Source: Candidatus Aegiribacteria sp.
Lineage (GTDB): Bacteria > Fermentibacterota > Fermentibacteria > Fermentibacterales > JCC-6
Length of the DNA: 49,207 bases
Assembly (NCBI GenBank): GCA_030613065.1
Contig: JAUWMQ010000005.1
Coordinates: forward strand, 1-49,207
Direction: 5' to 3'
A program made the position numbers and the translations under genes. Numbering within the stretch: position 1 is the first letter of the stretch; every line of letters starts with the position of its first letter. The notes under the pieces were generated by a model, which made no database searches, was not told the origin of the DNA, and was given only the letters and a program-made list of their open reading frames with translations. Shown here one piece after another: positions 1,117 through 19,907 of this stretch.

Positions 1117-1871
1117 GTTTTCGATCCCTTCCCGAGAACCCTGTGGGGAATTCCACCGTGTGAAATCAGTTCGAATGGACAGCCGTAAGCCTTTTCTACT
1201 GATTCAGACGACAGTGTTTCTCCGTGACTAATAATTGTTCTGTTAATGCATGCGATGTTCTTAACATGTGCAGATACAGCGCCCACATCGTGAGTGACAA
1301 GCAGGATCGTCATCGTACTGTTCAGCTCCGCAAGAAGATTGAAAAAACTTTTCTGTGTATCGTGATCAACACTTGCTACAGGCTCATCAAGAAGTAGTAG
1401 CTTCGGATTTCCCGCAAGAGCTCTGGCTATCAGTACCCGCTGCTTCTGGCCCCCTGAAAGAGAGTTCATGTCCAGGTCGGCAAGGTCTCCCACATCAAGC
1501 CTTTCAAGGTTCATTTCAGCTATATTTCTGTCCCTCAGAGTAAATCTGCTGAACAGGCCGGAATCCTTCAGCCTTCCCATTAGAACCACATCCTTTACGG
1601 TAATGGGAAATGATTTCTCAGGTATAAGTTGAGGTACATAGCCGATTTCACAGCGGGTCTTCTCAGGAGATCCGCCAAGGACTACGGCGCTGCCTTCCCA
1701 GGGTGTAATCAGACCCAGGATCACTTTAAGAAGTGTTGTTTTCCCGCCGCCGTTGGGACCTATTACAGCCAGAAAATCGCTCTTCGGGACTGTAAGATCA
1801 ATGTTATGTATGACAGGGCTGCCCCTGCGGTAACCGGCAGTGACGCCGTCAAACCTGATTGCTTCGTTCAT
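1113..1871 (-). CDS. znuC: Metal ABC transporter ATP-binding protein
   Basis: Walker A GPNGGGKTTLLK, signature LSGGQKQR, Walker B LLLLDEP. Confidence 0.92.
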   Translation of the reverse strand: MNEAIRFDGVTAGYRRGSPVIHNIDLTVPKSDFLAVIGPNGGGKTTLLKVILGLITPWEGSAVVLGGSPEKTRCEIGYVPQLIPEKSFPITVKDVVLMGRLKDSGLFSRFTLRDRNIAEMNLERLDVGDLADLDMNSLSGGQKQRVLIARALAGNPKLLLLDEPVASVDHDTQKSFFNLLAELNSTMTILLVTHDVGAVSAHVKNIACINRTIISHGETLSSESVEKAYGCPFELISHGGIPHRVLGKGSKT

Positions 1872-2786
1872 TTAAGGGGTTACCGTTCCGGAAAGCTGTT
1901 CCGCCACATAATAGAGATTACTCTTCCAGTCCTCTGCAAGGGGGTCTATATAACTTACCTCAACGCCGATCTCCGTTGCGATGGCTTCCGCTGAGGAAGT
2001 GCTGAACTGCGGAGAGACAAAAATCGCAAGTATATCGTTCTCCCTGGCGTAATCGACAAGCCTGGACATTTCCCGAGGTGATGGTTCGCTGCCTGCTGTC
2101 TCAATCGGTATCTGAACAAGACCGAATTCATCGGCGAAATACCCCCAGGCTGGATGGAAGACAATGAAGCTTCTTGAGGATGAAGAACCGATCAATGAGC
2201 GGATACTCTTCTGAAGGGAATCGATCTCCGTGTAAAAACCATTCAGGTTTATCATGTATTCATCCGCTTTTAATGTATCAAGCAGTGAGAGTTCCTCGGC
2301 GATTACTGCCGCCTGGCTCCGGACCAGTTCCGGTGAAAGCCATACATGCGGATCCAGGGAGCCGTGTCCATGATGCTCAGATGATGTATCATGACCGGTA
2401 ACTGTGTACCTGTTGATGGGAAGTCTTTCGATGTTCTCTATAGTGCTTCTGACCCTCAGGTCAGGGTTGGTGCCTGTGAACCTTGGAAGCCATGGGGATT
2501 CAAAAGGAACTCCAACTGTGAACCATACGTCTACACTGCTCATGTCCCTCATGTCCGATGGTGACGGTTCGTAAGTGGCGGGATTTGCCCCTGGGGGTAC
2601 GACAACTACAATGTCAATTGAATCGCCTGCTATCATCTCCACGAAATACTTCTGCGGTAGTACGCTAACGGCTACTTTCAATTTTTCCCCTTCACCTGCG
2701 GATGCTCCTCCGCAACCCGATTGAAGAAGTACTGACAGAAAGGTAAGAGATGTCAGACAACCTGTGGTCATTCTACTGCTGCGCAT
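1872..2786 (-). CDS. znuA: Zinc ABC transporter substrate-binding lipoprotein
   Basis: Signal/lipobox-like N-terminus, short His-rich loop (GHDTSSEHHGHGSLDPHVW), conserved His residues of the ZnuA/TroA fold; adjacent to znuCB. Confidence 0.9.
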   Translation of the reverse strand: MRSSRMTTGCLTSLTFLSVLLQSGCGGASAGEGEKLKVAVSVLPQKYFVEMIAGDSIDIVVVVPPGANPATYEPSPSDMRDMSSVDVWFTVGVPFESPWLPRFTGTNPDLRVRSTIENIERLPINRYTVTGHDTSSEHHGHGSLDPHVWLSPELVRSQAAVIAEELSLLDTLKADEYMINLNGFYTEIDSLQKSIRSLIGSSSSRSFIVFHPAWGYFADEFGLVQIPIETAGSEPSPREMSRLVDYARENDILAIFVSPQFSTSSAEAIATEIGVEVSYIDPLAEDWKSNLYYVAEQLSGTVTP

Positions 2787-3193
2787 TTACTGCATTTCCC
2801 TTCAAGGAAGAAATCCGAATTTACTATTTGAAAGCTGCACGTGTTTTCAACCATTTTAATGAAATCGTCCGGGAGCTTGCAGGAAACCGGGAATCTTTTC
2901 CCACACTTCTCGCATTTGAAGTGGCCATGGTCGGGGTAGAAAGATCTGGAACACCGGTAACGCAGATTACCTTCGAAGCTTCTATCAGGCCTGAGAAAAC
3001 CGATTTGCTCCAGGGAACCGAGACACCGGTGAACTGTTGATATATGAGGACTGCAAGACAGTCTGTCATGAACATCTCTTGCGGAAAGGCCACAGGCACC
3101 ATTAATGAATAGCTCAACCACCTGTTTTTTGAGGGGGGTGATTCTCAGCCCCCTGTCTCTCAGTTTATTCAAGATACCTGCGGAATTCATCAT
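2768..3193 (-). CDS. Fur-family transcriptional regulator (probable Zur)
   Basis: Internal ATG (MMNSAGILNKLRDRGLRITPLKKQVVELF) gives a normal Fur length; two CxxC motifs (CEKCG, CSKC); overlaps znuA. The longer 271-aa ORF start is unlikely. Confidence 0.85.
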   Translation of the reverse strand: MMNSAGILNKLRDRGLRITPLKKQVVELFINGACGLSARDVHDRLSCSPHISTVHRCLGSLEQIGFLRPDRSFEGNLRYRCSRSFYPDHGHFKCEKCGKRFPVSCKLPDDFIKMVENTCSFQIVNSDFFLEGKCSKCAAVE

Positions 3194-3280
3194 CTTTTCC
3201 TTAATGCGAAACAGTTGCAATAATATGTACAGCATGCAGTGTGACAGCAAGCTTACCTTTACCCATATTTCTCCCTGGAG

Positions 3281-3988
3281 GTGAACGTGATTACTTCTGT
3301 TCAGACTATTGAAAACAATCTTCAGACTGCTGTGGAGCTGGTCGAGAATGCTCTCAATTCCTGCGGGGAGAGCGACCGTACGGTCGCAATAATGGCAGTC
3401 ACGAAAACACATCCTGTAGAAGTCGCAAAGATGGCTATCGAAGCCGGCATCGCGCTCCTCGGAGAAAATCGAGTCAGTGAGGGGGGACGCAAAATAAAAG
3501 CGCTGGGAAAGGCTGCTGCTGAATTTCATATGATCGGCCCCATACATACGGGAGAGGTTCGGCAGGCCGTACGGGATTTTCACTGGATAGATTCCGTTGG
3601 TAGATTGAAAATCGCCAGAGAAATAGCTCGAAAAACGGTTTCAAGAGGAGAGGAGCAGCCTGGTATCCTTGTAGAGGTGAATACATCCGGAGAAGAATCC
3701 AAACATGGCTTCAATCCAGACTATCACGAGCTCTGTGACGTTCTGGGTGAGATCAGTGAAACCGGTCTGCGTATTTCAGGATTGATGACGGTAGGGCCCC
3801 TTGGAGGAAGCGAACTGGATACCTCTGAAGCCTTCGCTCTTCTCAGGCAGCTCAGGGACCGTCTTGAAAGCAGCTCTGATTATGACCTCTCCGAACTTTC
3901 CATGGGGATGAGTGATGATTTCGTACTCGCGGTTAAAGAAGGGGCAACAACCATCAGGCTCGGCAGATACCTTTTCGGTCAAAGGTAG
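3281..3988 (+). CDS. YggS/PLPBP-family pyridoxal phosphate homeostasis protein
   Basis: AVTKTHPVEVAKMAIEAGIALLGENRVSEG, FHMIGPIHTG, LVEVNTSGEESKHGF, SMGMSDDFVLAVKEGATTIRLGRYLFG. Confidence 0.93.
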   Translation: MNVITSVQTIENNLQTAVELVENALNSCGESDRTVAIMAVTKTHPVEVAKMAIEAGIALLGENRVSEGGRKIKALGKAAAEFHMIGPIHTGEVRQAVRDFHWIDSVGRLKIAREIARKTVSRGEEQPGILVEVNTSGEESKHGFNPDYHELCDVLGEISETGLRISGLMTVGPLGGSELDTSEAFALLRQLRDRLESSSDYDLSELSMGMSDDFVLAVKEGATTIRLGRYLFGQR

Positions 3989-4099
3989 ACTCCTGAATAT
4001 GGAATTGACTTCAAATGAACAATAATTATCATTTATATATGTGTATACTCGAACACAGGGGGTCAGTTTCCCTGATCTCAGCGGAAATGGAGAATCACC

Positions 4100-4633
4100 G
4101 TGCGTATTACACCTCTTGATATTAGAAGACAGAATTTTCGCAAAACCATGAGAGGTTACGATGTAGATGAGGTTGAGGCGTTCCTTGAAATGGTCGCGTC
4201 CGCCTGGGAGGAACTTGTCGATAACCTTGAGAATGCTGAGAAAGAATTGATCGTCCTAAGAACCAGAGCAGCGGATTTTGACCGGATGGAAGGCGCTGTA
4301 AGGGATGTACTTGTACAACAGCAGCAGAGCGCTGCGCAGGCAAGAAAGGAAGCTGACCGAGAGGCTGAGCTTATTATCATGGATGCCGAGGTTAAATCAT
4401 CCAATCTTGTATCCGAAGCCAGGGAAAGGGTTCAGGTTCTGACTGAAACTATCCGTGAGCTGCAGGATAGAAGACTGTCAGTGCTGTCGCAGATAAGGTC
4501 ATTCGTTGATTCTCACAGAAAAATGCTGGATCTTGAGGAGGAAAGAATTAAATCAGAAATGATCCCTGATGAAGAAAGACTGCCCGGTGAAGAGGATGGC
4601 GACGTTCCCATACTTGAATTAACGGAGCTCTAG
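4100..4633 (+). CDS. divIVA: DivIVA domain-containing protein
   Basis: N-terminal MRITPLDIRRQNFRKTMRGYDVDEVEAFLEMV followed by coiled coil; GTG start. Confidence 0.9.
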   Translation: MRITPLDIRRQNFRKTMRGYDVDEVEAFLEMVASAWEELVDNLENAEKELIVLRTRAADFDRMEGAVRDVLVQQQQSAAQARKEADREAELIIMDAEVKSSNLVSEARERVQVLTETIRELQDRRLSVLSQIRSFVDSHRKMLDLEEERIKSEMIPDEERLPGEEDGDVPILELTEL

Positions 4634-4635
4634 AA

Positions 4636-7600
4636 ATGTCTGTCCTGCTCATTTTACTGCTAGGCTTAAACTCCATTTCATCTCCCTCAAGGCAGGCAAG
4701 CGATACGCCGGTACAGGTGGGAACATCCTCAACATTTCTCACATGGGTGTGTTCTGGGGTAGAGCCGATTGAATGGCTGCCGGAGGGCCTGACAGGTTAT
4801 TACGCGGACAACTGCGGCTTATCCGGATCTTCAGGTTCCGTACTGCTGCCAGGGGCGAACCTGTTTTTCGCGATACCACCTGGTGTTGAGCCGGAGCTGG
4901 AGATTATTCCCGAGGGGGTTCGTTACCTTTCGGGAGGTACCGTATCGAGCGTAAGTGTATCGTCAGACGGAATAGACATGTTTGATGCGGCAGCCGTTGA
5001 AGATATCCCGCGAACGTGGGGTCAGATAAAAGGTACCGGAACATTCAGAAGAGCAGGCTACGCTCATATTCAGCTGTATCCTGTAATAAGCCGTAATGGT
5101 GCTCTTTATACAGCCGACAGGTTCCAGGTACGCTTGAATTATCCCGATGCCGGACCATCGGTTTCCGCATCAGGGGTAAGCGGCACCATATTCGATGCCC
5201 TGTTCGAAGGTGGAAATCAGATATGGAAAACTCCTGAAGAAAGAATTGATTCAAGCCCCTTCTGGGGTCTTCCCTGGTATGCCCTGGATATTGATACGGC
5301 AGGAGTATACTGTATTACCGGAGCTGATATCCCTTTGGCGGATGGTACTTCATCGGCCAGTCTTTCGCTGTTCTGCGGCAGAGGACGCGAAATGGGGGAG
5401 GAACCCTGGCTGGATGAGTATATCCCAAGGCCTGTTCCAATATTGGTTGATGACGGTGGAGACGGTGTCTTCAATTCAGGAGACAGACTATTCTTCTTCG
5501 GAAGAGGGCTGGCATGGTGGGAACCCACCAATGACAGTCTTCCTGCCCACTTTAATCACAGGTTTGCAACCAGTAACACCTACTGGCTGACATGGGGCGG
5601 GGAAGACGGAGCCAGGATGAATGTTCAGAACGGGGAACTGACCGGTGCTCCGGCAATGCCCGACAGTTTTCTGTCAAGGCAGCATCTGGAACAAAACCAT
5701 ACCAGAACCCGTGGAATCGTAAATCTGTCGGATGACTGGGCATGGATCCTGTCCGAAGGCAGTTCTGACACCTGGCATTACCTTAATTTTGATGCTCCGG
5801 AGGCTGAAGGCAGCGCTCTCCTGAAGATTAAACTGATTTCAAACGTCGGTATCAGGCATCGCATCAGAATACTGCTGAATGGAACCGCAGTGTGCGATAC
5901 AACCTGGGACGATACAGGTGTATTCATGCCCACTGTGCCCATGGATGGGATTCTGGATTCGGGGAACTTGCTCGCCCTGGAATTAATAAGGATGTCAGGG
6001 AGTGATACGGTTTTCCTTGACTGGTTTGAAGTCTTCAGCTGGACTGATAATTCGCTTTCGGGTCAGGTTCAGGTACCCCTGGAATGGTGGCCTGTTTACG
6101 ATCGTCAGGAATTCACATGGGGAAATGATCTCAGTGATGCCCTGGTTTTCCTGGTGAGTGGTGATACACTTGCGGAGAACATCAGTGTTGACGACCCGCA
6201 TCAGTTCGAATTTGAAGTGCCTGTTTCCTGGGAGGCCAGGGAACTCTGGATCTCAGATTACGGTGATATGCGCTCTCCTGCAGAAGTACGGTATGAATCA
6301 CCGGGCAGGATCATCGGATCCCTGAATGGTGCCCGGTGCCTCTTCGTTGCGGCAGATGAGTTTTTCAATGACATAACCCCGCTGACGCAGCTGAGCGGAG
6401 ATCTGATCGCGGTCAGAGCTTCAGAGGTTTACAACGAATTCAACGGGGGTGTAAGAGATCCCCGGGCAATACAGGCGATGGTTTCAAATATCATCGATTC
6501 CTGGCACACGATACCGGAAAACCTGATTCTTGTAGGGGGCGGCAACTGGGATCCGCTCAATTTCGTTTCCAGCAAGATCTCTTACATTGATATTCTATAC
6601 ATAAGTAAATACTCAATATTTGTGTCGGATGATAAGTTTTCGATAGTTGAGGGATCCCATCTTCCTCAGATAGCGCTATCCAGAATGGGGATAACCAACC
6701 GTTCGGACCTGCAGCTGCTGGTCGACAGGAGTCTTTCATACCGCAGCAGCGAAAACTGCGGGGAATGGCAGACCGTTGTTCTGGGTGCTGCCGACGATGA
6801 GCGGTCACCTGAGGGCGGGGATGACGAAAGGTATCATACACAGAGTGTTGAGAGGCTATTGACTGATCATCTTCCCGATGTGCTTCGCCCCGAAAAGCTC
6901 TATCTTATTCTCTACAATTGGAACAGTTTATGGAAGAAACCCGAGGCACGGCTGGATTACATAGACCTCTGGAGCGAAGGGGCGCTTGTCTCACTCTACC
7001 TTGGACATGGCGGCTATGACCAGCTGGCGGACGAAGGTCTTCTCTACCTTGAAGACAGCGGGCTCCTTGCGTGTGAGAAGCGGCTTCCAGTGGCTCTTTT
7101 CGGTTCCTGCGATGTCGGGCAGTTTCAGAATCCTTCGTCCGAATGCCTGGCTCAGCAGGTCACAACTTCTCAGGCGGGGGGAGCGATACTCGGCCTTGGA
7201 GCCACGGGCTTAACATCCGGTCCCCAAAACGAAATTTTTGTAGCCTATATTCTGGATAACTTTTTCAGTGAACCGGATCTTTCGGTGGGCATGTGCGCAA
7301 TGCTCGGGAAGATCAGTGCGGGTTACAACTCTAATATGGCCAAGTACATACTTTTTGGCGACGGAAGCCTCAAGCTTGCTTTCCCCTGGGATTCGTTCAG
7401 CGTCTCTAGCGATACTGTTTTTGCGGGGGAAGAAGTTACTCTCACCGGCACGGCACCTTCTGATGGCATTATTTTCGTTGAATCATGGGAATCGTGCCGG
7501 CCGGATACACACTACACTTTAGGCTCTCATTTACCTATTGAATACCTGTCAGTTCCAGGTAGATTCTATTCCGGTACGGTTTACGCTGAACCAGGTTACA

Positions 7601-8382
7601 GCGCGAGCATGTTCGTACCGGTAGACAGTGATACAGGAGCCCTGGCCAGAACCCAGCTTACATTCCTCAGCAGCAACGGCTTTGCAGCTGCTTCAACCTA
7701 CCCCGCAATGCTTTTGTTGGGAAATCCCCTTCCGGATAACGAGGGCCCCTCGATAGAACTCTGGGTCGAGGGATACCGGAACGCAACTAATCCTGAGATC
7801 TCAGGCGATATTAATGTCAGGGCCATTCTTTCGGACAGTTCCGGCATTAACCTTCTGGGTAATGTGGGCCGTCAGCTTGCTCTTTATGTGGATGGCACAG
7901 CTGATGATGTTTCTGACTGTTTTCAGTATCACAACGGTTCAAGTACTACTGGTGAACTCAGGGTTGGAATCGGTGTTCTTGAACCCGGGGGCCATATCAT
8001 TCAGTTAAGAGCGTCAGACGGACTCCTGAATTCAACCATTGTCGAGATAGAGATCACCGTAACCGAGGATAATTCATTCGGGATCAGTGGTGTATTTCCT
8101 TATCCGAATCCATGTAACGACGGCACATCCATAAACTGGACACAGTCATCACCTGGAAAGGTTGATATTTCTGTATACACGATTGCCGGTAGAAGGCTGA
8201 TTTTGTTCGGGAACATTGAAGGAACAGACGGATATAACCAGTGCTGGTGGGACTGCAGAGATGTAGATGGAGATGCAGTGGCCAGCGGAACGTATATCTT
8301 TGTTGTATCTGCTGCTTCGATTTCCGATACTGGAGAGAATTCAGAGGCTACAGGAATAATAGCAGTTGTACGTAACCAGTAA
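4636..8382 (+). CDS. C25 (gingipain)-family cysteine peptidase, PorU-like, with C-terminal T9SS/FlgD-like domain
   Basis: YLGHGGYDQLADEGLLYLED…VALFGSCDVGQF (His/Cys dyad context of C25); C-terminal YPNPCNDGTSINWTQSSPGKVDISVYTIAGRRL…SGTYIFVV. Confidence 0.85.
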   Translation: MSVLLILLLGLNSISSPSRQASDTPVQVGTSSTFLTWVCSGVEPIEWLPEGLTGYYADNCGLSGSSGSVLLPGANLFFAIPPGVEPELEIIPEGVRYLSGGTVSSVSVSSDGIDMFDAAAVEDIPRTWGQIKGTGTFRRAGYAHIQLYPVISRNGALYTADRFQVRLNYPDAGPSVSASGVSGTIFDALFEGGNQIWKTPEERIDSSPFWGLPWYALDIDTAGVYCITGADIPLADGTSSASLSLFCGRGREMGEEPWLDEYIPRPVPILVDDGGDGVFNSGDRLFFFGRGLAWWEPTNDSLPAHFNHRFATSNTYWLTWGGEDGARMNVQNGELTGAPAMPDSFLSRQHLEQNHTRTRGIVNLSDDWAWILSEGSSDTWHYLNFDAPEAEGSALLKIKLISNVGIRHRIRILLNGTAVCDTTWDDTGVFMPTVPMDGILDSGNLLALELIRMSGSDTVFLDWFEVFSWTDNSLSGQVQVPLEWWPVYDRQEFTWGNDLSDALVFLVSGDTLAENISVDDPHQFEFEVPVSWEARELWISDYGDMRSPAEVRYESPGRIIGSLNGARCLFVAADEFFNDITPLTQLSGDLIAVRASEVYNEFNGGVRDPRAIQAMVSNIIDSWHTIPENLILVGGGNWDPLNFVSSKISYIDILYISKYSIFVSDDKFSIVEGSHLPQIALSRMGITNRSDLQLLVDRSLSYRSSENCGEWQTVVLGAADDERSPEGGDDERYHTQSVERLLTDHLPDVLRPEKLYLILYNWNSLWKKPEARLDYIDLWSEGALVSLYLGHGGYDQLADEGLLYLEDSGLLACEKRLPVALFGSCDVGQFQNPSSECLAQQVTTSQAGGAILGLGATGLTSGPQNEIFVAYILDNFFSEPDLSVGMCAMLGKISAGYNSNMAKYILFGDGSLKLAFPWDSFSVSSDTVFAGEEVTLTGTAPSDGIIFVESWESCRPDTHYTLGSHLPIEYLSVPGRFYSGTVYAEPGYSASMFVPVDSDTGALARTQLTFLSSNGFAAASTYPAMLLLGNPLPDNEGPSIELWVEGYRNATNPEISGDINVRAILSDSSGINLLGNVGRQLALYVDGTADDVSDCFQYHNGSSTTGELRVGIGVLEPGGHIIQLRASDGLLNSTIVEIEITVTEDNSFGISGVFPYPNPCNDGTSINWTQSSPGKVDISVYTIAGRRLILFGNIEGTDGYNQCWWDCRDVDGDAVASGTYIFVVSAASISDTGENSEATGIIAVVRNQ

Positions 8383-8503
8383 CTGGTAATGATGCTGGCT
8401 GTGGTAATGATGCTGCCTGACAGTTGGTCGGGATTGAAAAACCAAGCAGATGTAAATGATATGGATGATCCGGAAGAGCTTCCGGTTTAAAGCAGGAGGA
8501 ACA

Positions 8504-9508
8504 ATGAATAAAGGACTTCTTTTAATTACCATGATTCTTGCCCTGGCTTCGGTCTCGTTCGCTTCTACAGCAAGTGTTATCTGGATGACAATAACTCCGG
8601 GTGCACGCCCGAATGGTATGGGTGAAGCTTTTACTGCTCTGGCCAACGATGCAACCGCGTCGTACTGGAATCCGGCGGGGCTGGCTTTCGTCGACACCAC
8701 CGGAAATGAACTTACCCTGCAGCACAGCAACTGGCTTCCCCAGCTGGCTGATGACCTGTACTACGAGTTTCTGGGTTACGCCACGAACATTGAAGGGTGG
8801 GGCGGTGTTGGAGGGAACATCACTTTCATGTCAATGGGTGAACAGCTGGAAACGACCGAATCGGGACAGGAACTTGGATCATTCTATTCGTATGGTATCG
8901 CCCTGACTGGTTCCTTCGGAACCGAAGTGGCTCCCGGCGTTGCTGTGGGACTGGGTCTGAAATTCATTTACGATCATCTCTACTACAAGGATGAGGGCAA
9001 AGGTACGTCCTTCGCGGCTGACCTTGGAGTGCTGTACCATCTACCCATGGAGGCGCTCGGGCTTGAAAGCGCTGGTCAGGTGAACATAGGTGCGAGTCTG
9101 ACAAACCTTGGACCCAATGTAAGCTACGGGGGCAATGCCGAGAATAATCCCCTTCCGCGAACCATCAGAATGGGAATTGCCTACATCCCATTTGATTCTC
9201 ATCTGACACGTCTCAGGTGTACTGCAGATTACAGCAAGCTTCTGACCAACGTCGATGAAGGAATGGCAACGGAGTTCAACGAGAACAAATGGGGAGCCGG
9301 AGCCGAGTTCTGGTATTACGACCTTCTGGCTCTCAGGGCAGGATTCATCCACGACACGGAGGGCATTTCAACTATCCAGGGACCTACCTTCGGCGCAGGA
9401 CTTCAGTATGCCGGTTTCCAGCTTGATATGGCCTTCATACCCGTAGAGGAGAATCTGCAGGGTTCAGGGAAGTACAATTCCAAATACTCCCTTTCCGTAA
9501 GGTTCTAG
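8504..9508 (+). CDS. PorV/PorQ-like outer-membrane protein
   Basis: Signal peptide MNKGLLLITMILALASVSFA, then GARPNGMGEAFTALANDATASYWNPAGLAF; RBS aggagg upstream of ATG 8504; barrel-like C-terminus ending F. Confidence 0.85.
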   Translation: MNKGLLLITMILALASVSFASTASVIWMTITPGARPNGMGEAFTALANDATASYWNPAGLAFVDTTGNELTLQHSNWLPQLADDLYYEFLGYATNIEGWGGVGGNITFMSMGEQLETTESGQELGSFYSYGIALTGSFGTEVAPGVAVGLGLKFIYDHLYYKDEGKGTSFAADLGVLYHLPMEALGLESAGQVNIGASLTNLGPNVSYGGNAENNPLPRTIRMGIAYIPFDSHLTRLRCTADYSKLLTNVDEGMATEFNENKWGAGAEFWYYDLLALRAGFIHDTEGISTIQGPTFGAGLQYAGFQLDMAFIPVEENLQGSGKYNSKYSLSVRF

Positions 9509-9514
9509 ATAAAA

Positions 9515-12346
9515 ATGAGAAATCTCTTACCGATGCTGCTGTTCATCCTGATCGGAGCGGTTTCGGCTGCCCCGCCTATAATTCACGGAGCCGTACCGCC
9601 ACTGCATGAAAGACCCTCAGAAGGGGCCGCGATTGCCGGGCCTGGCAAGGTCGACAGCTCTGATGAAACTATGAATGTCTGTATGATAAGGGCGCAGTTT
9701 CTGGAGGATTTTACCGATGAAACCAGCGGGAACGGTAGAATTGATCTGAGCGCCGACCCGCCCCATAACAAGGATTATTTTCAGGGCATAGCAGACGATA
9801 TCGCTTCCTATTACGTGGATATAAGCGGAGGAGAACTGGTTCTTTCCATTGATGTATACCCAGCATCAATGAATGGTTCTTATACAATGCAGCACCAGAT
9901 GATGTATTATGGTAACGACGCGAACTACATGCAGGGGGCATGCCTGCTTCTGGAGGACGCTGTCCTGCAGGCGGATGAGGATATTGATTTTAGTCTGTAC
10001 GATGCGGTTATTGTCATTCATGCCGGTTCCGGTCAGGAAGCTGACATTTACAGGAACAGCCCGGGAGACATCGGATCGCTCTTCCTTACCCTGACTGATT
10101 TGATCTTTTACCTCCCCGGGGCAGGCCTGGGATTTCAGGGAATTCGCACATCCGACGGAGTTTTCGTCCGTGAGGGCATGATCGTACCCGAGCAGGAATC
10201 ACAGGACGGATTCGGCCTTGGCGTGCTTGGAACCATCTGCCACGAATTCGGACACCAGCTGGGGTTGCCGGATCTTTACGATACCAGTACGGGACATGTG
10301 GGAGTCGGCGGCTGGGACCTGATGGGTTACGGTCAGTGGATTATGAGCGGTTACTGGCCTGCGTCACTCAGCGCGTGGTCCAGGATATATCTCGGCTGGG
10401 ATACGGCTACGGAAGTATCCGATGGAACCTTCACACTGGCTTACAACGATTCGATTCTTAAAATTCCTCTTAACGGCTCGGAGTATCTGCTGGTGGAAAA
10501 CAGGCAGCGTGACCCTGATGGGAACGGGATGTGCGGAATACATGAGCACGATTTCGGCCTTCCCGGTTCAGGGGTTCTGATATGGCATATCGATGAAACT
10601 CGTCTGGGAGATTACCTCGCAATGAATATGGTCAATGTGGACCCCGAGCATAAAGGTGTTGATCTTGAGGAAGCTGACGGTATACAGGATTTTGACTATT
10701 CACTTCCCGATATATACGGTTACGAAGGCAGTGAGTTCGACCCCTGGTTCCCGAGTGGTTACGCCTGGGAGTTTTCTCCCACCTCCGAACCATCAAGCGA
10801 TGCCAGCTGGGGAGGTAAAACTTTTGTTACGGTAGAAGTCCTGGATGACCCGGCAAACGAAATGGATGTTCTGGTAACAAGAACAACAGTATGTGACGGG
10901 TGGCCCATTCAGGCATCTCTTATTAAATGGGGACCACTGATCTGGGAAGATGCCGATGCTTCAGGAGATCGGCTTGTAGTAACAACGATTACCGGGCACG
11001 TAAGCGCTTATATGCAAGATGGTTCCGGGCCATACCCCATGGGAAATGGAATTACTGCTCCTCCCGTGGCCGAAAACCCTTCTGGCGGTGCATCACTTCT
11101 GCTTGTATGCGGAAACGACGGACAGGTGCATTTAAGGGATATACAGTGGAACGAGCCTGATGGCTGGCCTGTTACTCTTTCGGGAGGCGGCACAGGTACA
11201 ACTGCTCTGATCAGTTCGGAGCTTGGTATTGTAGCGGTGGCCGATGATGTGAGTAAAGTACACCTTTACAATTCCGCCGGAATACAGCAAAGCGGATGGC
11301 CTGTTGATACCGAGGCTCAGGTAGCTGGTATGGCTGTATATCCCGATGATGAGTATCCTGGCATAGTTGCGTCAACGATTGATGGCCGTGTTTATCTCTG
11401 GAATATTGATGGAAGTGAAGCAGATGGCTGGCCCGTTACTCCGGGCGATGAAACAATCAGCATACCCCTATCCGCTGATATAAACCGTGACGGTTCTGCC
11501 GATATCGTCGTAGTCAGCGGTGATTACCTCTACGCATATGACATAGAAGGAGATATCCTTCCGGGATTCCCATCAATGCTTCCCGGTTCCCCTCTCTCTT
11601 CACCCAGTTTGAGTGACCTGAACAGTGATGGAAGACTGGAAACAGTTATCCCCACGGATTGTGGTGCAACTGCTGTTTGCGCCTCGGGTGTCACCCTTGA
11701 GGAGTGGCCCGTGAAGCTTGAACAGGACAGCCTGGTTTCCGGATTCAGCAGAAACAGAATGGGTATCGGAGGCAGCGGGTTTGTATTGATTTCAATGGAT
11801 GACGGCCGGATATGCATGTTCGACTCGGATGGTAAACAGTTCGGAGTATTCCCGGTATCCGTTGGAGACGAACCAATCGGGCGTCCCCTGCTGTGGGATC
11901 CTGAGAATACAGGGAACTGGAGGTTAGTCGCTGCCGACACGAACGGCAATGTCTGCTGCTGGAACATTTCGGTGAAGCCTGAGGGCTGGTTCACCGGTAT
12001 GGACATGTCCGGCAGCAACTGCTGGTGGAGTGAGGATCTTCCTCCTGCTCCGGTTTCCGGCTCCACACTCCGGGAGGGTTCCTTCTACGTTTATCCGAAT
12101 CCGGTTCAGCAGGGAAGCGGAATAATACGTTTCCAGCCCGGTGAGAATTGTTCCTGGGAGATAAGGATATTCAATATGGGTGGCGACCTTGTTGCCCATA
12201 AAACCGGAACAGCACCCGGAGGATCACCCTGGGAAGTACCCTGGAACACCGAGGATCTTGCCCCCGGTGTCTATTTTGTAAGCCTGCACATTTCGAGCCC
12301 AACCGGCTCAACTGATGCTTTATTCCATGCGGCGGTGATAAACTGA
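9515..12346 (+). CDS. M6-family metalloprotease with internal beta-propeller and T9SS-type C-terminal domain
   Basis: HEFGHQLGLPDLYD zinc motif; repeated (D/S)GWPV segments; C-terminal YPNPVQQGSGIIRFQPG…APGVYFVSLHI. Confidence 0.88.
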   Translation: MRNLLPMLLFILIGAVSAAPPIIHGAVPPLHERPSEGAAIAGPGKVDSSDETMNVCMIRAQFLEDFTDETSGNGRIDLSADPPHNKDYFQGIADDIASYYVDISGGELVLSIDVYPASMNGSYTMQHQMMYYGNDANYMQGACLLLEDAVLQADEDIDFSLYDAVIVIHAGSGQEADIYRNSPGDIGSLFLTLTDLIFYLPGAGLGFQGIRTSDGVFVREGMIVPEQESQDGFGLGVLGTICHEFGHQLGLPDLYDTSTGHVGVGGWDLMGYGQWIMSGYWPASLSAWSRIYLGWDTATEVSDGTFTLAYNDSILKIPLNGSEYLLVENRQRDPDGNGMCGIHEHDFGLPGSGVLIWHIDETRLGDYLAMNMVNVDPEHKGVDLEEADGIQDFDYSLPDIYGYEGSEFDPWFPSGYAWEFSPTSEPSSDASWGGKTFVTVEVLDDPANEMDVLVTRTTVCDGWPIQASLIKWGPLIWEDADASGDRLVVTTITGHVSAYMQDGSGPYPMGNGITAPPVAENPSGGASLLLVCGNDGQVHLRDIQWNEPDGWPVTLSGGGTGTTALISSELGIVAVADDVSKVHLYNSAGIQQSGWPVDTEAQVAGMAVYPDDEYPGIVASTIDGRVYLWNIDGSEADGWPVTPGDETISIPLSADINRDGSADIVVVSGDYLYAYDIEGDILPGFPSMLPGSPLSSPSLSDLNSDGRLETVIPTDCGATAVCASGVTLEEWPVKLEQDSLVSGFSRNRMGIGGSGFVLISMDDGRICMFDSDGKQFGVFPVSVGDEPIGRPLLWDPENTGNWRLVAADTNGNVCCWNISVKPEGWFTGMDMSGSNCWWSEDLPPAPVSGSTLREGSFYVYPNPVQQGSGIIRFQPGENCSWEIRIFNMGGDLVAHKTGTAPGGSPWEVPWNTEDLAPGVYFVSLHISSPTGSTDALFHAAVIN

Positions 12347-13008
12347 TGAAAAATTTCGCGCTTCTGCTCGCATCCGTTCTGATTCTTCTTCCCGGAATCT
12401 CGGAAGCAGATCTGAGCTCCCGAAAGGGAGCAATGCTGCGATCCGTCCTGCTTCCCGGATGGGGTCAGATGCACCTTGGACATTCAACAAGGGGGATAGT
12501 CTTCATGAGTCTTGATGTCCTGACCTGGACAGGAGTTGGACTCTCCTATCTTGAAGGTACCTTCAACAGAGACGATTACAGGTGGCTTGCAGTATCCGAA
12601 GCCGGTGTTTCCGTTTCCGGCAGATCAGGCGATTTCCTCGATGATATGTCAGATTTTGCTTCAAGCGCTGAATTCAACGATTACATTCACAGGCTCGCCA
12701 GGTACTATTACCCCGATGATCCCGATGCTCAGAGGGCATATTTTGAATCCCATGCCCTGTACGGCGGTGACAGTTGGGACTGGTCATCTGACGCGGCCAG
12801 GAACCAGTTCACCGACAGACTGAGAGACAGCAGGCAATGGTTCAGAAGAAGCATGTATATAGCCGCCTTTGCTGTGGTTAACAGGGTTGTAAGTGTGATA
12901 GACGCTTCTCTTCTGGATGAGAGCCAGCCGGGCGTTTACACCTCACTGTCTTTCCCCGAATTCCGTGACTTCTCATCAGTCAGGTTTTCGATAGGAGCCA
13001 GATTCTGA
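12346..13008 (+). CDS. DUF5683-like exported/membrane protein
   Basis: Signal peptide, SVLLPGWGQMHLGHSTRGIVFMSLDVLTW; 1-nt overlap (TGATG) with upstream gene. Confidence 0.6.
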   Translation: MKNFALLLASVLILLPGISEADLSSRKGAMLRSVLLPGWGQMHLGHSTRGIVFMSLDVLTWTGVGLSYLEGTFNRDDYRWLAVSEAGVSVSGRSGDFLDDMSDFASSAEFNDYIHRLARYYYPDDPDAQRAYFESHALYGGDSWDWSSDAARNQFTDRLRDSRQWFRRSMYIAAFAVVNRVVSVIDASLLDESQPGVYTSLSFPEFRDFSSVRFSIGARF

Positions 13009-14672
13009 TGGTATTACTTATTCTCTCGCTGATTCTTCAGAGTTCCGCCCCGGCATGGTGGATCGATGGAACACCTCTGGTTCCGGGTATCATGGAGATA
13101 GAAAGACGCCACGACCCCTCTTTTGAGCCCACTGGTCCCCTCAGTTCCGGCAAGGGTCACAACATAGGAGATACGATAAATTTCTGGTCGATCGATCACA
13201 GTACCCAGTACCCCATGTTCTATCTAACTTCCGCCACCTGCAGGTATGTTGGAGAAAGAACGTACATTTTTGTAGAGGATACTCAATGGGATATTGATAC
13301 GGTCACTCAGAGCTATGTTGACGAGTTTTCAGCCGCCCTGGAGGACAGCACTCCATCGGGGCCCGGAGGAATCGTTGAAACCGATATCGCAGTTTTCGGA
13401 CAACCGCCCGATGCCATCGACGGAGACCCGAAGATCTACTTCCTGGTGCTTGATATCAGGGATGGTTTTATCGATTCGCTGGGTGGTGCCTACATTGCCG
13501 GTTTCTTCAGCCCCTACAATCAGTTCACCGAGACCGAGGCGTATCTTTACTACGGTGGGCATTCCAACGAAGTTGAGATGCTTTACATAGATTGTCACCC
13601 GAGTAATCAGAGTGATGCGGCTTACACGGCATCTCATGAACTTGTGCACCTTATCCAGTGGGGAATTCAGCCCTTCAGCTACGAGGAGCTGTGGGTGATA
13701 GAGAACCAGGCCCAGTCAGGAACATTCGTATGCGGTTATCCCGCGTTCCAGATTGAAACATTCCTGGAGGTGGGGGGAATAACCCCTATCAAGTGGACGA
13801 ATCTGGAAGACATCATAGAATACGTTGCAGGCTACGGGGCAGGCTACCTTTTCTTCGCTTACCTGTACGAGAATTATGGTGGAGTGGATTTTCTTCATGA
13901 ATCCCTGAGATCCGCAGAGCGCGGAATTGCTGGAATAAGTGAGGCCATCCGCGACGTCACCGGTTCGAATCCCGATATGAACCGGATTCTCCTTGACTGG
14001 ATGCTGGCCTGCTGGATAGATGATCCGGACTTCGGCAATGGGAAATACGGATGGGAATCCTTCAGGATCGCTGATTATGATACGGTATCTCCTGGCAACA
14101 GACCCGGGCTTGATTACACTTTCGAGATAGCCACAGATCCTTTTACGCATTCAGGTGACCATATGTCCTCGTACCAGGGCAGATATTACAGCGTTGATGA
14201 ATTGCTTACAGGCAGCTTCCGCGCTGCGACCTCAGGTCTCGGAGATCTGGAGGCATTCCTGTACGACGACACATTGGGAACACTTGAGGAAGTGAATATC
14301 GGTTCAGCAAACGATGTTGCGATATCACTTCCTGTAGAAGCTGACATTCTACTTCTCTGCAGCTCATTCTCAGGACTTAACCTTGATGTTTCTGCAGGCT
14401 CAGTCCTCTCCTCCGGGGATGTATTCACGTTCTATCCGCAGCCATGCCGCGGTACACTCTACTTCCAGTTTATTTCTGATGGAGGAGATGTGGAACTTTC
14501 GGTATTCACTCTTGCCGGTGAATATGTGGAAACCGTGGGCTTCAGCAGCGTAAACAGCGGAGAAGTGACACTCGCCTATCCCGGTGCGGCCGATCTCTCG
14601 TCGGGTATCTATTTCTTCAGATTCAGCCAGAGCGGCAGCATGGAAACCGGCTCCTTCGCAGTTGTGCGCTAA
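13008..14672 (+). CDS. Secreted zinc metalloprotease (M30-like) with T9SS-type C-terminal domain
   Basis: ASHELVHLIQW HExxH motif; C-terminal FYPQPCRGTLYFQFISDGGDVELSVFTLAGEYV…SSGIYFFRF; TGATG coupling. Confidence 0.75.
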   Translation: MVLLILSLILQSSAPAWWIDGTPLVPGIMEIERRHDPSFEPTGPLSSGKGHNIGDTINFWSIDHSTQYPMFYLTSATCRYVGERTYIFVEDTQWDIDTVTQSYVDEFSAALEDSTPSGPGGIVETDIAVFGQPPDAIDGDPKIYFLVLDIRDGFIDSLGGAYIAGFFSPYNQFTETEAYLYYGGHSNEVEMLYIDCHPSNQSDAAYTASHELVHLIQWGIQPFSYEELWVIENQAQSGTFVCGYPAFQIETFLEVGGITPIKWTNLEDIIEYVAGYGAGYLFFAYLYENYGGVDFLHESLRSAERGIAGISEAIRDVTGSNPDMNRILLDWMLACWIDDPDFGNGKYGWESFRIADYDTVSPGNRPGLDYTFEIATDPFTHSGDHMSSYQGRYYSVDELLTGSFRAATSGLGDLEAFLYDDTLGTLEEVNIGSANDVAISLPVEADILLLCSSFSGLNLDVSAGSVLSSGDVFTFYPQPCRGTLYFQFISDGGDVELSVFTLAGEYVETVGFSSVNSGEVTLAYPGAADLSSGIYFFRFSQSGSMETGSFAVVR

Positions 14673-15420
14673 CACCTTAACCTTTCTGCTCGCAGCTCTG
14701 AGTGTTCTCTACGTTTCCGAAACAGCTTCACCACTGCCAGACAGTGATGAACGATACCTTACGGTTCCCGATGGGATAATTGACGCCGAGATAAACGGGG
14801 CAGGGGATATCTACGTGCTTCTGCCGGGGTTGCCTCACCTGCGCATCTACGCAGCGGGGGGGTCCATCTCCGAATATGACCTGTCCGATGTTCTTCTTCC
14901 AGGAGGAATGTGCATCGATGAAAGATGGGGATGGTTTATTACTGGTGAACTCACGGATATGGTTTACCTGTATGACAATGCAGGTGAGCTTACGGATTTC
15001 TGGGATTCCCGCGGCATGCCGGGTGATATATGTCTCAGGGGTTTATCCGTTCTGTACGTTTCACGGGCAAGCGGTACGATTACTCTGATTGATGAACCGG
15101 ATGATATTCTTGTAAGACTGAACGGTTCCGGTAATGGCCAGCTCACCGCGTCGGGAAATGAAGCGGTCTATTCAAGTGGAAACGAATCCCTGCTCCTCAG
15201 AAATTATTCCACCCCCGAATCTTTGCCCGATGCAGGCACTTGGACCGTTGCCGGAAGAGGGATGATGGTTCTGCAGGATTCCTGCGTACTTGACGGTAGC
15301 GGGGCTGTTCTGTTCCAACTGCCCGAACCGGGGGAATTCTCCAGGATATCCTGTTCGGCGAACGGCAATCACTGCCTGCTCTGGACACCGGGGAAAGGCA
15401 GAATTCTGGTGCTGCGATGA
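14662..15420 (+). CDS. Exported beta-propeller/NHL-like hypothetical protein
   Basis: Likely TTG start at 14662 (LCANTLTFLLAALSVLYVSETAS signal-like); overlaps upstream stop by 11 bp and downstream start by ATGA. Confidence 0.6.
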   Translation: MCANTLTFLLAALSVLYVSETASPLPDSDERYLTVPDGIIDAEINGAGDIYVLLPGLPHLRIYAAGGSISEYDLSDVLLPGGMCIDERWGWFITGELTDMVYLYDNAGELTDFWDSRGMPGDICLRGLSVLYVSRASGTITLIDEPDDILVRLNGSGNGQLTASGNEAVYSSGNESLLLRNYSTPESLPDAGTWTVAGRGMMVLQDSCVLDGSGAVLFQLPEPGEFSRISCSANGNHCLLWTPGKGRILVLR

Positions 15421-18400
15421 GCCTCTTCTCCGCCGCGATAATACTTCTTACATCAATGACCCTGGAGTTTGAAAGTGATGGTTCGGCTTTCTTCGAGACT
15501 CCCGATTCTATCTGGATTGCGCCAGGCTCGATTACAGCCATCGCTGACGGTGATACGCTGAGTGCGGTGCCCGGAACATCGGGAAGTAGGACAGGCGTCA
15601 TTTTCGATCCCCCCCCGCCAGCAGGCTGTACCGTTGAACTGGAATTTGAAGTGCTTCATTTGAGCATCCCTTCATCGACTTCACTTGATGTGGGCTTTTT
15701 AGAGAGGCGGATAATCGAGCAGCTTCGAGGGTATGAAACCGATCCTTTTCAGGAACATGGTCTTTACATATCAGGTTCAAAAAGAATAGGGTTTTCAGTG
15801 GGTGACGGAGGAGGACTGGATCAGGGAACAAGAATTTCGGTTGAAGGCAGCGCGGCTCCGGGAATCACGGTTTCAGGAAGCATAACCGACCGCAACCTGA
15901 CAGCCGGACCCACTTCCTCAGAACTTGTCTCACAGCTTGACAGGATATTTTTCATAGTTGATGGTGGATCATGGAGAGCCAGGCTGGGCGACATGGACTG
16001 GATAAGCGGTAACGGAGAGAACGGACCCCTTTCATGGAGACGGGAAGTAAGCGGAGTTGATGCTCAGGGGGATATCACCAGTTCCATCACCACCGGTGCC
16101 GGTTACGGAACATCGGGGGATTCCAGGCAGAGGTCCGTATTCTATACAGATGAGGGAATTCAGGGGCCATACGATGTGTCAACCGGATGGGAGATCGTCC
16201 CCGGCAGTGAGAAGGTATGGCTGGATGGACAGCTTATGCGCCGTGGCGCCACTGAAGACTACCAGATGGAATATACAGCAGGTCTGATAACTTTCACTGC
16301 AGTGCGACTCATAAGGTATGACCAGAGAGTGGAGATCACCTTCTTCCAGCGAGGTGATGGCTTCAGGAAGGATTTTGTGACCGCCTCCGCGCTCTACTCC
16401 CTAAGCGACCTTGAGATTGAATTCAAGGGTTTCCACAGTTTAGATGACAGGGAATCACCTCTGGGGTTCCTGCTGACCGAAGAGGCGGCTGAAGTTCTCC
16501 GCAACGCCGGCGAGGATCCTGCTGACGCATGGCTTGACGGGGCTACCAGCGTCGGGCAGGGGGAAGGCAGTTATACTCTGGATTCACTGGGACATTACGT
16601 GTATGCAGGACCGAATCAGGGCGACTGGAATGTCATTTTCGGAAGACCGCCATCCGGGAACGGAGATTACATTTTCGACAGTTCACTCGGAGGGTACTTA
16701 TGGGCAGGCGAAGGTAGTGGAACTCATCTGCCGCGTCAGTACGTGCAGATTCCTTCAGGCTACAGTACAGGCGGTTTTAAAGCGGAATACGCATCCGGCA
16801 GTATTGACATGGAGCTTGAAGCAGCCTTTTCCGGAAGAACCGGAAATCTGTACAACCCGGATAATACTTCAAGGGAGGGAACCTGTTTTATCGCTGCCGC
16901 CGAAATGGAATTCTGGGAAGACGGTCCGGGACTGGGTATCGGGGGAAGGATCGTTTCGTCCGGTTACGAACCTCCCGGAGAGCTCGAGCCGGACAGTGCT
17001 CTTTCCGCATGGTCCCTTCCCACACAATACGATGGCAAAGATAACGTCGTGGATGTGAGTCTTGGAGGAGACAGACTTCTTGCGTCTGCTTCGGGCAGAT
17101 TCATGGAATCCGGAGGTATCCTTGAGCGATATCGCATTGCTTCGAATCCTGTTGTGGGGAATATCAGTGTCCAGGCAGGAGGATTATTCCTCAGGAGGAA
17201 CGATACCCCTGAAATGGCTTTAGGTCAGACCTCATCCATCTCCGTATCAGCAATTCCGGTGACAGGTTCGCTCAAACCTTTCGTGGGCTGCAGCTTCTTA
17301 AAGGAGTTCTGGGAGGACAGCCTCTCAGGAGGAGTGAATACAGAATATGCAGGTCTCTCCTATTTCAGGAATACTACCGATGCTCTCCTCCGAATTGAGC
17401 TTCAGGACGACGGAAGGTCCGGTGGAGCTTCAGGCGGATCCTTCAACGTGTGGAGAGCCCGTCTCGAAGGATCCGGTCCCGCTGGTGAATTCAGATACAA
17501 AGGCAGCCTGGAGCATTCTTCAACCTCGTTCGATTCCGGTGGAGAACTCCAGGCGGATGCTATCAGGCTATCCATGACCGGAACATCGGGGGATATATGG
17601 ATGCAGGCGGTCTACAGTGGTTCAGGAACCGTAAGCAGGTCACTTGATGTTATGTTCGTATACGCGGGAGAGGGGGAAGGAAACTACAGCTACGATCCCG
17701 AAAGCGGTCAGTACTACGCTGACCCGGATGGCGATTACATTGTAATCTACCAGCCGGGAGCTGCAGGCGATGTTATTACTTCCGCATCTCTTGAGACTAC
17801 ATTATCCTCAACCGGAGCATCATCCGGCGTCAGTTCCGTTTTAAGGCTATCGGCCAGCAATTCCCTGGACAGAAAAAAATCTCTTCTGCTGTACGGCGCA
17901 TTTGACAGCAGCGAGGAGGGAGGATACAGCCTGGATATTTCACCGTGGTTTCGGTGGGAAACCGCTCTTCTGAGCAGGCTTAATTTCAGAGGGAGGCTGA
18001 GGAATGAAAGGATATCTTACAGTGGCGCGGGATTGAAGGATGAAAGGTTCTGGTCCATAAGGGCGGCGCCGGAGTTAAGCCTTTCGGATATTCTTCTGAT
18101 CGAATGCTCCGCTAAATTCTGGCGTGAGGAGGAGGAACTCTACTACCCTCGAGATACTCGTGGGTTGAGGCTGGAGATCGATCCGACCCTGGAGCTGTTT
18201 CCCGGCCTGAAATCCGGTATCATGACGGCTTACGAGTCCAGAAGAGAAGTGGTTTCAAGTCTGGATAAATACATGATTGAAGCCGGTCCGCATTTCTCCT
18301 GGATCGGTGGAGGCTGGAACGCGACAGCCCTCGTATCCGCGGGATATATACCCGGGGATGATCTGCTTCCCGCATGGTTCTTTGATGGAAACGACAGCGG

Positions 18401-18539
18401 TATCTCATGGAGAACATCTGCAAGGATAGGCAGGAGCCTTTCATCGGGGCTGGATATCAGTATTTTCTACTGGGGAAGAAAACCATCCGGAAGCAGCTGG
18501 AGTCAGAGGGCGGGCCTTGAGGGAACGGTGAATTTCTAG
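15417..18539 (+). CDS. Large predicted outer-membrane protein, probably beta-barrel C-terminus
   Basis: GLYISGSKRIGFSVGDGGGLDQGTRISVEGSAAPGITVSGSITDRNLTAGPTSSELVSQLDRIFF, and repeated 'PGSEKVWLDGQLMRRGATEDYQMEYTAGLITFT' type segments; alternating hydrophobic strands; ends in F. Confidence 0.55.
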   Translation: MSLFSAAIILLTSMTLEFESDGSAFFETPDSIWIAPGSITAIADGDTLSAVPGTSGSRTGVIFDPPPPAGCTVELEFEVLHLSIPSSTSLDVGFLERRIIEQLRGYETDPFQEHGLYISGSKRIGFSVGDGGGLDQGTRISVEGSAAPGITVSGSITDRNLTAGPTSSELVSQLDRIFFIVDGGSWRARLGDMDWISGNGENGPLSWRREVSGVDAQGDITSSITTGAGYGTSGDSRQRSVFYTDEGIQGPYDVSTGWEIVPGSEKVWLDGQLMRRGATEDYQMEYTAGLITFTAVRLIRYDQRVEITFFQRGDGFRKDFVTASALYSLSDLEIEFKGFHSLDDRESPLGFLLTEEAAEVLRNAGEDPADAWLDGATSVGQGEGSYTLDSLGHYVYAGPNQGDWNVIFGRPPSGNGDYIFDSSLGGYLWAGEGSGTHLPRQYVQIPSGYSTGGFKAEYASGSIDMELEAAFSGRTGNLYNPDNTSREGTCFIAAAEMEFWEDGPGLGIGGRIVSSGYEPPGELEPDSALSAWSLPTQYDGKDNVVDVSLGGDRLLASASGRFMESGGILERYRIASNPVVGNISVQAGGLFLRRNDTPEMALGQTSSISVSAIPVTGSLKPFVGCSFLKEFWEDSLSGGVNTEYAGLSYFRNTTDALLRIELQDDGRSGGASGGSFNVWRARLEGSGPAGEFRYKGSLEHSSTSFDSGGELQADAIRLSMTGTSGDIWMQAVYSGSGTVSRSLDVMFVYAGEGEGNYSYDPESGQYYADPDGDYIVIYQPGAAGDVITSASLETTLSSTGASSGVSSVLRLSASNSLDRKKSLLLYGAFDSSEEGGYSLDISPWFRWETALLSRLNFRGRLRNERISYSGAGLKDERFWSIRAAPELSLSDILLIECSAKFWREEEELYYPRDTRGLRLEIDPTLELFPGLKSGIMTAYESRREVVSSLDKYMIEAGPHFSWIGGGWNATALVSAGYIPGDDLLPAWFFDGNDSGISWRTSARIGRSLSSGLDISIFYWGRKPSGSSWSQRAGLEGTVNF

Positions 18540-19907
18540 ATGATTACCACTATCAGCGCTATACTCTGCATTACTTTTGCGGCGTCCCCTGCGGAGAGTA
18601 AACTCACCGTTGACATTGGTGGCAGTCCTCCCGTTCCCGCTTTGTACGAACTTGGAATTGATTCAGTTCTTGCTTCCGATTCATCAATCACAGTGCTGCA
18701 GGAAAGTGTCCTGCAATGGTATCTAGAAGAAGGATACCCATTTGCCGGTGCTGGTTACTACTTTATATCGGACGATTCCCTTATTGTGAATACTGTTCCC
18801 GGCAGGCACGCCCTCCTTGAAGAAGTTCGCATTGAGGGGGCAGAGGGAACCCGCAGTGAAGTTTTTGAAAGGCTGCTGGTAATTGAGCCCGGCGATCCCT
18901 ACAGCCGTGAGGAGGTTAACGCATGGGTTTCAAGGATCGAGCAGCTGAAGTTTATTAAAGTCGCGGGCACGACCGAGCTGTTCCTTGGAGAGGGCGGCAA
19001 TCTCGTCATCGTACAGCATATTCAGAAAGGGAGGGCAGGGCATTTCGCCGCGTCCATGGAGTGGCAGGGGGATTATCTTGAAGGTGCCGGAGAGGTTCTT
19101 TTCCTGAATCTGGCTGGAACCGCGCGGGAACTGGAGATATCCGGCAAGACTACCGAATGGGGAGGTTTTAACGCGTATCTCAGGTACAGAGAGCCATGGC
19201 TTTTCGGCATTCCCCTTTCAGCCCAGCTTGAAGTATCCCAGGAAATCCCCGAAAGCCTATGGGTCAACCGGGAGGGAATCCTTTCAATTATCTGGAGCTT
19301 TGACCGGTCCGAGATCATTGGAGGAGCCGGTATCTGGAGGGGATATCCCCCGGACGGAGAGCGGCAGAAGTACGATTACGGGCTTGCGGGAATAACATTC
19401 CGCACCGGTTCCAGAGTGCAGCAGGGCTGGGACGGAATTGAGATTCAACTGGAGGCTAGATCCGGCAACAGAACAGGGCAGGATTCTTCCGGTATTCTGA
19501 CAATGGCGGAACTGATAATTAATGGAAATATTTACAGAGGTGTAATTGGTTTCGGGGGTAGATTGCTGACAGGTGGAGTTATGCAGGGGGACTGGTTCGA
19601 AGGTCTTCTTGAACAGCTTGGCGGACAGGAAACCCTGAGGGGTTATCCCGAAAACGCTTTCAGAGCGGTACGATATGCAGTTGCAAGACCTGAGATCTCT
19701 CTGGGCGAAACCGAAACCAGACTATACCTGTTCTGTGATCTCGCTGCCGCTTTAACACCTTTCGATGGGATGAGATATCCCGTAGGCTGCGGGGCCGGAA
19801 TAAGGGGGATGAGCGGTATCTTCTATGCAGATGCAGCAGCCGGATTCCCGTTTCAGGAAGGGCTTGGCAGCGCCAGGCTCTATCTTCGCCTCACCGCTTC
19901 GATATAG
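18540..19907 (+). CDS. POTRA-containing Omp85/TpsB-like outer-membrane protein
   Basis: POTRA-like LLEEVRIEGAEGTRSEVFERLLVIEPGDPYSREEVNAWVSRIEQL and LRGYPENAFRAVRYAVARPE (V/LRGY motif). Confidence 0.8.
   Translation: MITTISAILCITFAASPAESKLTVDIGGSPPVPALYELGIDSVLASDSSITVLQESVLQWYLEEGYPFAGAGYYFISDDSLIVNTVPGRHALLEEVRIEGAEGTRSEVFERLLVIEPGDPYSREEVNAWVSRIEQLKFIKVAGTTELFLGEGGNLVIVQHIQKGRAGHFAASMEWQGDYLEGAGEVLFLNLAGTARELEISGKTTEWGGFNAYLRYREPWLFGIPLSAQLEVSQEIPESLWVNREGILSIIWSFDRSEIIGGAGIWRGYPPDGERQKYDYGLAGITFRTGSRVQQGWDGIEIQLEARSGNRTGQDSSGILTMAELIINGNIYRGVIGFGGRLLTGGVMQGDWFEGLLEQLGGQETLRGYPENAFRAVRYAVARPEISLGETETRLYLFCDLAAALTPFDGMRYPVGCGAGIRGMSGIFYADAAAGFPFQEGLGSARLYLRLTASI

Follow-up and report, generated by a model that had tools for sequence, protein, structure and literature searches.

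In the type IX secretion system (T9SS), passage through SprA, shuttling by PorV and cleavage by PorU are established in Porphyromonas gingivalis and F. johnsoniae (PMC10994853, PMC5562754, PMC8545088). One account confines the system to Bacteroidota (PMC4793230), and a more recent one allows that some other FCB phyla may have it (PMC11285876); our search of the available literature for a T9SS in either Fermentibacteria or Zixibacteria retrieved no report. The described systems closest to the locus analysed here are the PorU-PorV-PorQ-PorZ attachment complex of P. gingivalis, the SprA/Sov translocon, a putative second sorting set defined in NCBIfam and, for a single gene, BamA/TamA.

The locus lies in a stretch of 49,207 nucleotides (hereafter, the window), which is a 49-kb contig of a Candidatus Aegiribacteria sp. 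genome (Fermentibacterota; 2.8 Mb, 93% complete). It comprises eight genes at 4636-19907, all on the plus strand, preceded by a conserved neighbour:

4100..4633, plus strand: DivIVA-family protein, conserved neighbour upstream of PorU (PF05103, 101 bits)
4636..8382, plus strand: PorU-type C25 sortase with signal peptide and type A tail (NF033707, C25)
8456..9508, true start probably 8504, plus strand: PorV-type outer-membrane shuttle barrel (NF033709; match to 6h3i)
9515..12346, plus strand: M6 metalloprotease with FG-GAP/propeller region and type A tail (TIGR03296, NF052323)
12346..13008, plus strand: DUF5683-like small protein with signal peptide (weak DUF5683 match)
13008..14672, plus strand: M30/lugdulysin-like HExxH metalloprotease with type A tail (profile matches to 7bb8 and 8glj_D)
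14662..15420, TTG start at 14662, plus strand: fast-evolving secreted propeller-like protein (hhalign to NHL-propeller homologues)
15417..18539, plus strand: SprA-related large outer-membrane barrel of 1040 aa (family conservation; hhalign to SprA; AlphaFold)
18540..19907, plus strand: minimal Omp85/BamA-like protein with one POTRA, barrel and LRGY motif (POTRA; BamA model)

The original prediction of eight co-directional, coupled genes was confirmed. The M6 and DUF5683 genes overlap at 12346, and the DUF5683 and M30 genes at 13008; the M30 and propeller genes overlap by 11 nt, with the TTG start of the latter within TTGTGCGCTAA. The propeller and barrel genes share an ATGA overlap at 15417, and a stop-ATG at 18540 joins the barrel and Omp85 genes. 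The sole looser junction is that between PorU and PorV, with 73 nt to the first ATG or 121 nt with the PorV start at 8504. DivIVA and PorU are 2 nt apart in the window and close together in most relatives, and the DivIVA gene may share a transcript with the operon. YggS and DivIVA (window 3281-4633) are found upstream of PorU across the phylum, wherever the contig extends far enough. The window also contains, on the minus strand at 304-3583, Znu-type metal-uptake ABC genes adjoining an ORF (2768-3583) that is Fur-like as judged from its sequence only, as well as an IS110-family transposase (27933-29483) and a protein with a Castor/Pollux-type ion-channel domain (30480-32327).

In each of the 19 loci from the phylum, all genes that were detected lie on one strand and in the same order, so the arrangement is not due to chance, and the expectation of a fixed operon was upheld. 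The supposition that it is a lineage-specific variant was not, because a core of PorU-PorV, DUF5683, propeller, barrel and Omp85, with M6 in some cases, recurs in Zixibacteria, Latescibacterota, Krumholzibacteriota and Eisenbacteria, whose loci were found via a PorV scan of genomes. The order in Zixibacteria is PorU-PorV-PorV'-M6-DUF5683-(MA-clan peptidase with propeller repeats)-DUF5683-propeller-barrel-Omp85, and that in Latescibacterota is PorU-PorV-DUF5683-DUF5683-propeller-barrel-Omp85; Krumholzibacteriota and Eisenbacteria have similar gene sets, partly cut by contig ends. The eight-gene run is thus a real, deeply conserved operon. Its two halves can nevertheless be separated, since the PorUV part lies apart from the barrel part in KSB1, Cloacimonadota and Chlorobiota; joint function is therefore not obligatory. 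This separation fits an alternative in which the operon merely co-expresses two unrelated outer-membrane units, a PorU-PorV-protease T9SS unit and a propeller-barrel-Omp85 unit for envelope biogenesis or transport, although five phyla keep the two halves together; we return to it with the barrel below.

The identification of the first two genes as C25/PorU-like and PorV-like was borne out by the PorU and PorV models, a tree and a match to a solved PorV. The PorU model NF033707 aligns with residues 214-1238 of the window protein at 311 bits, below its equivalog cut-off of 420, and the C25 domain scores 168 bits; the catalytic GHG His and GSC Cys are invariant in 11 sequences. Proteins in the same cluster position pass the equivalog cut-off in Zixibacteria (751 bits) and Latescibacterota (555 bits), as does a Chlorobiota PorU adjoining PorV-PorV-M6 (958 bits). 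For PorV, the PorV/PorQ family NF033709 gives 227 bits (cut-off 90), and the match to the PorV of the SprA complex 6h3i has E=2e-31. The source genome contains 18 C25 matches, most of them presumably cargo, which could suggest a plain secreted-protease operon whose C25 member serves digestion in the manner of a gingipain and is not a sortase. We give this reading hardly any credence: the window protein matches the PorU model over its full length, whereas the cargo C25 proteins of the source genome match it only partially; it clusters in the tree with PorU from other phyla, apart from cargo C25s; and its pairing with PorV is fixed. The assignment of both proteins to the T9SS kinds is sound. Elsewhere in the source genome (C2, 3-7998), a Sir2-like ORF has a further full-length PorU paralogue on either side of it, in the same orientation (394 and 388 bits); these paralogues may be the main sortases.

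The two predicted HExxH proteases are an M6 and an M30/lugdulysin-like protein, both tail-bearing; together with PorU, they are the three operon proteins with type A tails, in agreement with the three tailed proteins originally noted. The M6 protein scores 118 bits with TIGR03296 and 341 bits with the T9SS M6 family NF052323, and its HExxHxLGLPD zinc motif is intact in nearly all relatives. The profile of the M30 protein matches lugdulysin (7bb8; 3.5e-10) and the T9SS sorting domain 8glj_D (0.0026), and the HExVH motif is invariant across 17 sequences. The DUF5683-like character of the small protein was likewise recovered, with a weak match in the window (E 0.0038) and a match of 7e-5 in the Zixibacteria homologue. 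The propeller claim stood in part. A Pfam search with the window gene gave no match, but its profile matches NHL-propeller proteins at the same position in other phyla (hhalign 84%, E=7e-6), which indirectly supports a propeller identity for 14662..15420. The gene was recovered in all 19 relatives, by tblastn in all but four and in those four as an open frame matching it in size and character. The PorV cluster of Zixibacteria, KSB1 and Cloacimonadota has, after M6, a ca. 1040-aa protein that joins an MA-clan peptidase domain to TolB-like propeller repeats (loci L158, 10549-13782; L098, L099 and L100). Proteins of ca. 320–346 aa directly 5' of the barrel gene in Cloacimonadota and Chlorobiota were considered as propellers and rejected, being metabolic enzymes; the propeller-barrel pair is therefore not universal.

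The 1040-aa barrel is covered by no Pfam or NCBIfam family, its sole match being to a short SprA segment. The SprA HMM aligns only over positions ca. 600–651 of 2319, and hhalign extends the similarity over 83–105 columns (95–96%; E 1.5e-8 and 4.2e-9), so that barrel and SprA have a segment of ca. 100 residues in common. We accordingly rejected that the barrel is itself SprA, as it matches one segment and not the full-length model. Homologues occur in 38 of 42 genomes of the phylum, and full-length ones also in other FCB phyla. An AlphaFold model built from an FCB-wide alignment (mean pLDDT 77) has a long C-terminal barrel; structure searches with the barrel models yielded nothing beyond outer-membrane barrels of a generic kind, at low TM-scores, the model resembling no particular solved one, and a sequence search for a solved relative found none.

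For Bacteroidota, we compared 80 evenly drawn genomes, 62 SprA-positive and 18 SprA-negative. The barrel was found in 56 of the 80, nearly always as one full-length copy, and all of these were SprA-positive (56/62 versus 0/18; Fisher p=4e-13, uncorrected for relatedness); six genomes contained SprA alone, 18 neither and none the barrel alone. Because of this distribution, we propose the barrel family as a candidate overlooked T9SS component, potentially an important one, although a few shared losses could account for much of the pattern. Most Bacteroidota loci place the barrel amid unrelated genes, such as NUDIX, PfkB kinase and MacB-type transporter genes, as would be expected if it belonged to a separate envelope unit. 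Its SprA-specific segment and its confinement to SprA-positive genomes in the Bacteroidota sample argue instead for a connection with T9SS, and we consider two merely co-expressed units unlikely, if the most serious of the alternatives.

The last gene, predicted to encode a POTRA/Omp85 protein, does so: its 455-aa product contains a detectable POTRA domain, scores 41.8 bits with the BamA model and belongs to a family with a conserved LRGY motif, thus combining the POTRA and the barrel with VRGF/LRGY motif that define the Omp85 superfamily. The suggestion that the operon, with its own Omp85, secretes its own proteases fared less well. The protein aligns with residues ca. 310–490 of BamA (best E 9e-19), that is, with the last POTRA and the first barrel strands, and for this reason an assembly factor is likelier than a translocon or secretion pore.

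As originally noted, SprA is not encoded in the window; a full SprA is found on another contig of the source genome (C156; 428–436 bits, cut-off 200). The genome also contains 84 type A tail matches, three of them in the operon, so that the suggested link to T9SS holds, with translocon, tailed cargo, PorU sortase and PorV shuttle all present in one genome. Neither outcome named beforehand as refuting the original reading was obtained, as the gene order recurs in relatives and a T9SS core protein is encoded in the genome. SprA exceeds the cut-off in 24 of 25 Fermentibacterota genomes searched, and in 38 of 41 FCB genomes. Profile searches detected GldM in none of 42 genomes of the phylum and none of 12 from other FCB lineages, and GldL in none of 20 non-Bacteroidota FCB genomes, including eight of the phylum; both were clear in a Hymenobacter control. 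At profile sensitivity, the GldL/PorL-GldM/PorM motor was therefore not detected, and Fermentibacterota may have a strongly diverged one. No true GldK was found over the cut-off either, and the matches to its model were rejected as GldK because they cover a shared domain only. With GldL, GldM and true GldK not found, this would be an unusual T9SS. In Fermentibacterota, sprA lies between a divergent lptF and pilB-pilB-pilT in all 11 loci compared (L062, which is G000:C156 of the source genome, and L181-L190), followed by pilC and a histidine kinase where the stretch extends; pil genes are absent from this position in the sprA loci of other phyla. Speculatively, with GldLM undetected, the pilus ATPases could be an energy source or partner for type IX export.

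The presence of a large barrel and an Omp85 next to tail-bearing proteases could also be taken to mean that the operon secretes autonomously, with either or both serving the M6 and M30 proteases as a SprA-independent pore. Indeed, one relative (G014, 98% complete; locus L051) has the full operon and no detectable SprA, although that genome may simply be incomplete. The wide occurrence of SprA in the phylum, and in the source genome on a contig other than the operon's, speaks against self-containment, as do the operon tails, which are of the same kind as those across the genome, and the BamA-like, single-POTRA nature of the Omp85; we thus hold an autonomous system to be very improbable.

The reading that we favour, and with reasonable confidence, is that the operon encodes an outer-membrane sorting/attachment module of a type IX secretion system. 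From the computed gene content, order, conservation, families, SprA, tails and co-occurrence, we infer all interactions and functions of its proteins as follows. Type A-tailed proteins would reach the periplasm via Sec and cross the outer membrane via SprA, encoded on another contig; PorV would take them from the SprA pore and hand them to PorU, which would remove the tail and anchor the protein at the surface. Both proteases, M6 and M30, would themselves be tail-bearing cargo, and the M6 protein, with a PorZ-like combination of propeller region and tail, may sit in the attachment complex. The DUF5683, propeller, SprA-related barrel and small Omp85 proteins would be outer-membrane companions. 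Among them, the Omp85 most likely aids insertion of the barrel, and perhaps of PorV, and the barrel most likely stands beside SprA/PorV as an anchor or second pore element.

Translocon, sortase, shuttle and many tailed proteins in Fermentibacterota and related phyla, with GldLM undetected, make a differently powered type IX export testable, and a barrel family lying outside those of Pfam and NCBIfam tracks SprA in Bacteroidota. Compared with the PorU-PorV-PorQ-PorZ complex of P. gingivalis (PMC5562754, PMC8545088), the operon likewise has a PorU sortase, a PorV shuttle and tail-bearing surface proteins, and its M6 protein shares with PorZ the propeller-plus-tail architecture. It differs in that no operon protein passes the PorQ or PorZ equivalog cut-offs, and in the addition of the M6 and M30 proteases, DUF5683, the SprA-related barrel and the Omp85. 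With respect to the SprA/Sov translocon (PMC10994853), the barrel has the SprA segment but, at roughly half the length, is without most of the SprA regions, and it forms a separate family alongside SprA. Gene 8 has the POTRA, barrel and LRGY of BamA/TamA, and keeps the last POTRA only. Like the putative second sorting set of NCBIfam, PorU2/PorV2/T9SS M6i (NF052324, NF052325, NF052323), the operon encodes PorU-, PorV- and M6-type proteins; however, the window proteins score as PorU (311 versus 21.5 bits for PorU2) and PorV (159 versus 57 for PorV2), and the window M6 protein retains an intact zinc motif, in contrast to M6i, which is described as inactivated.
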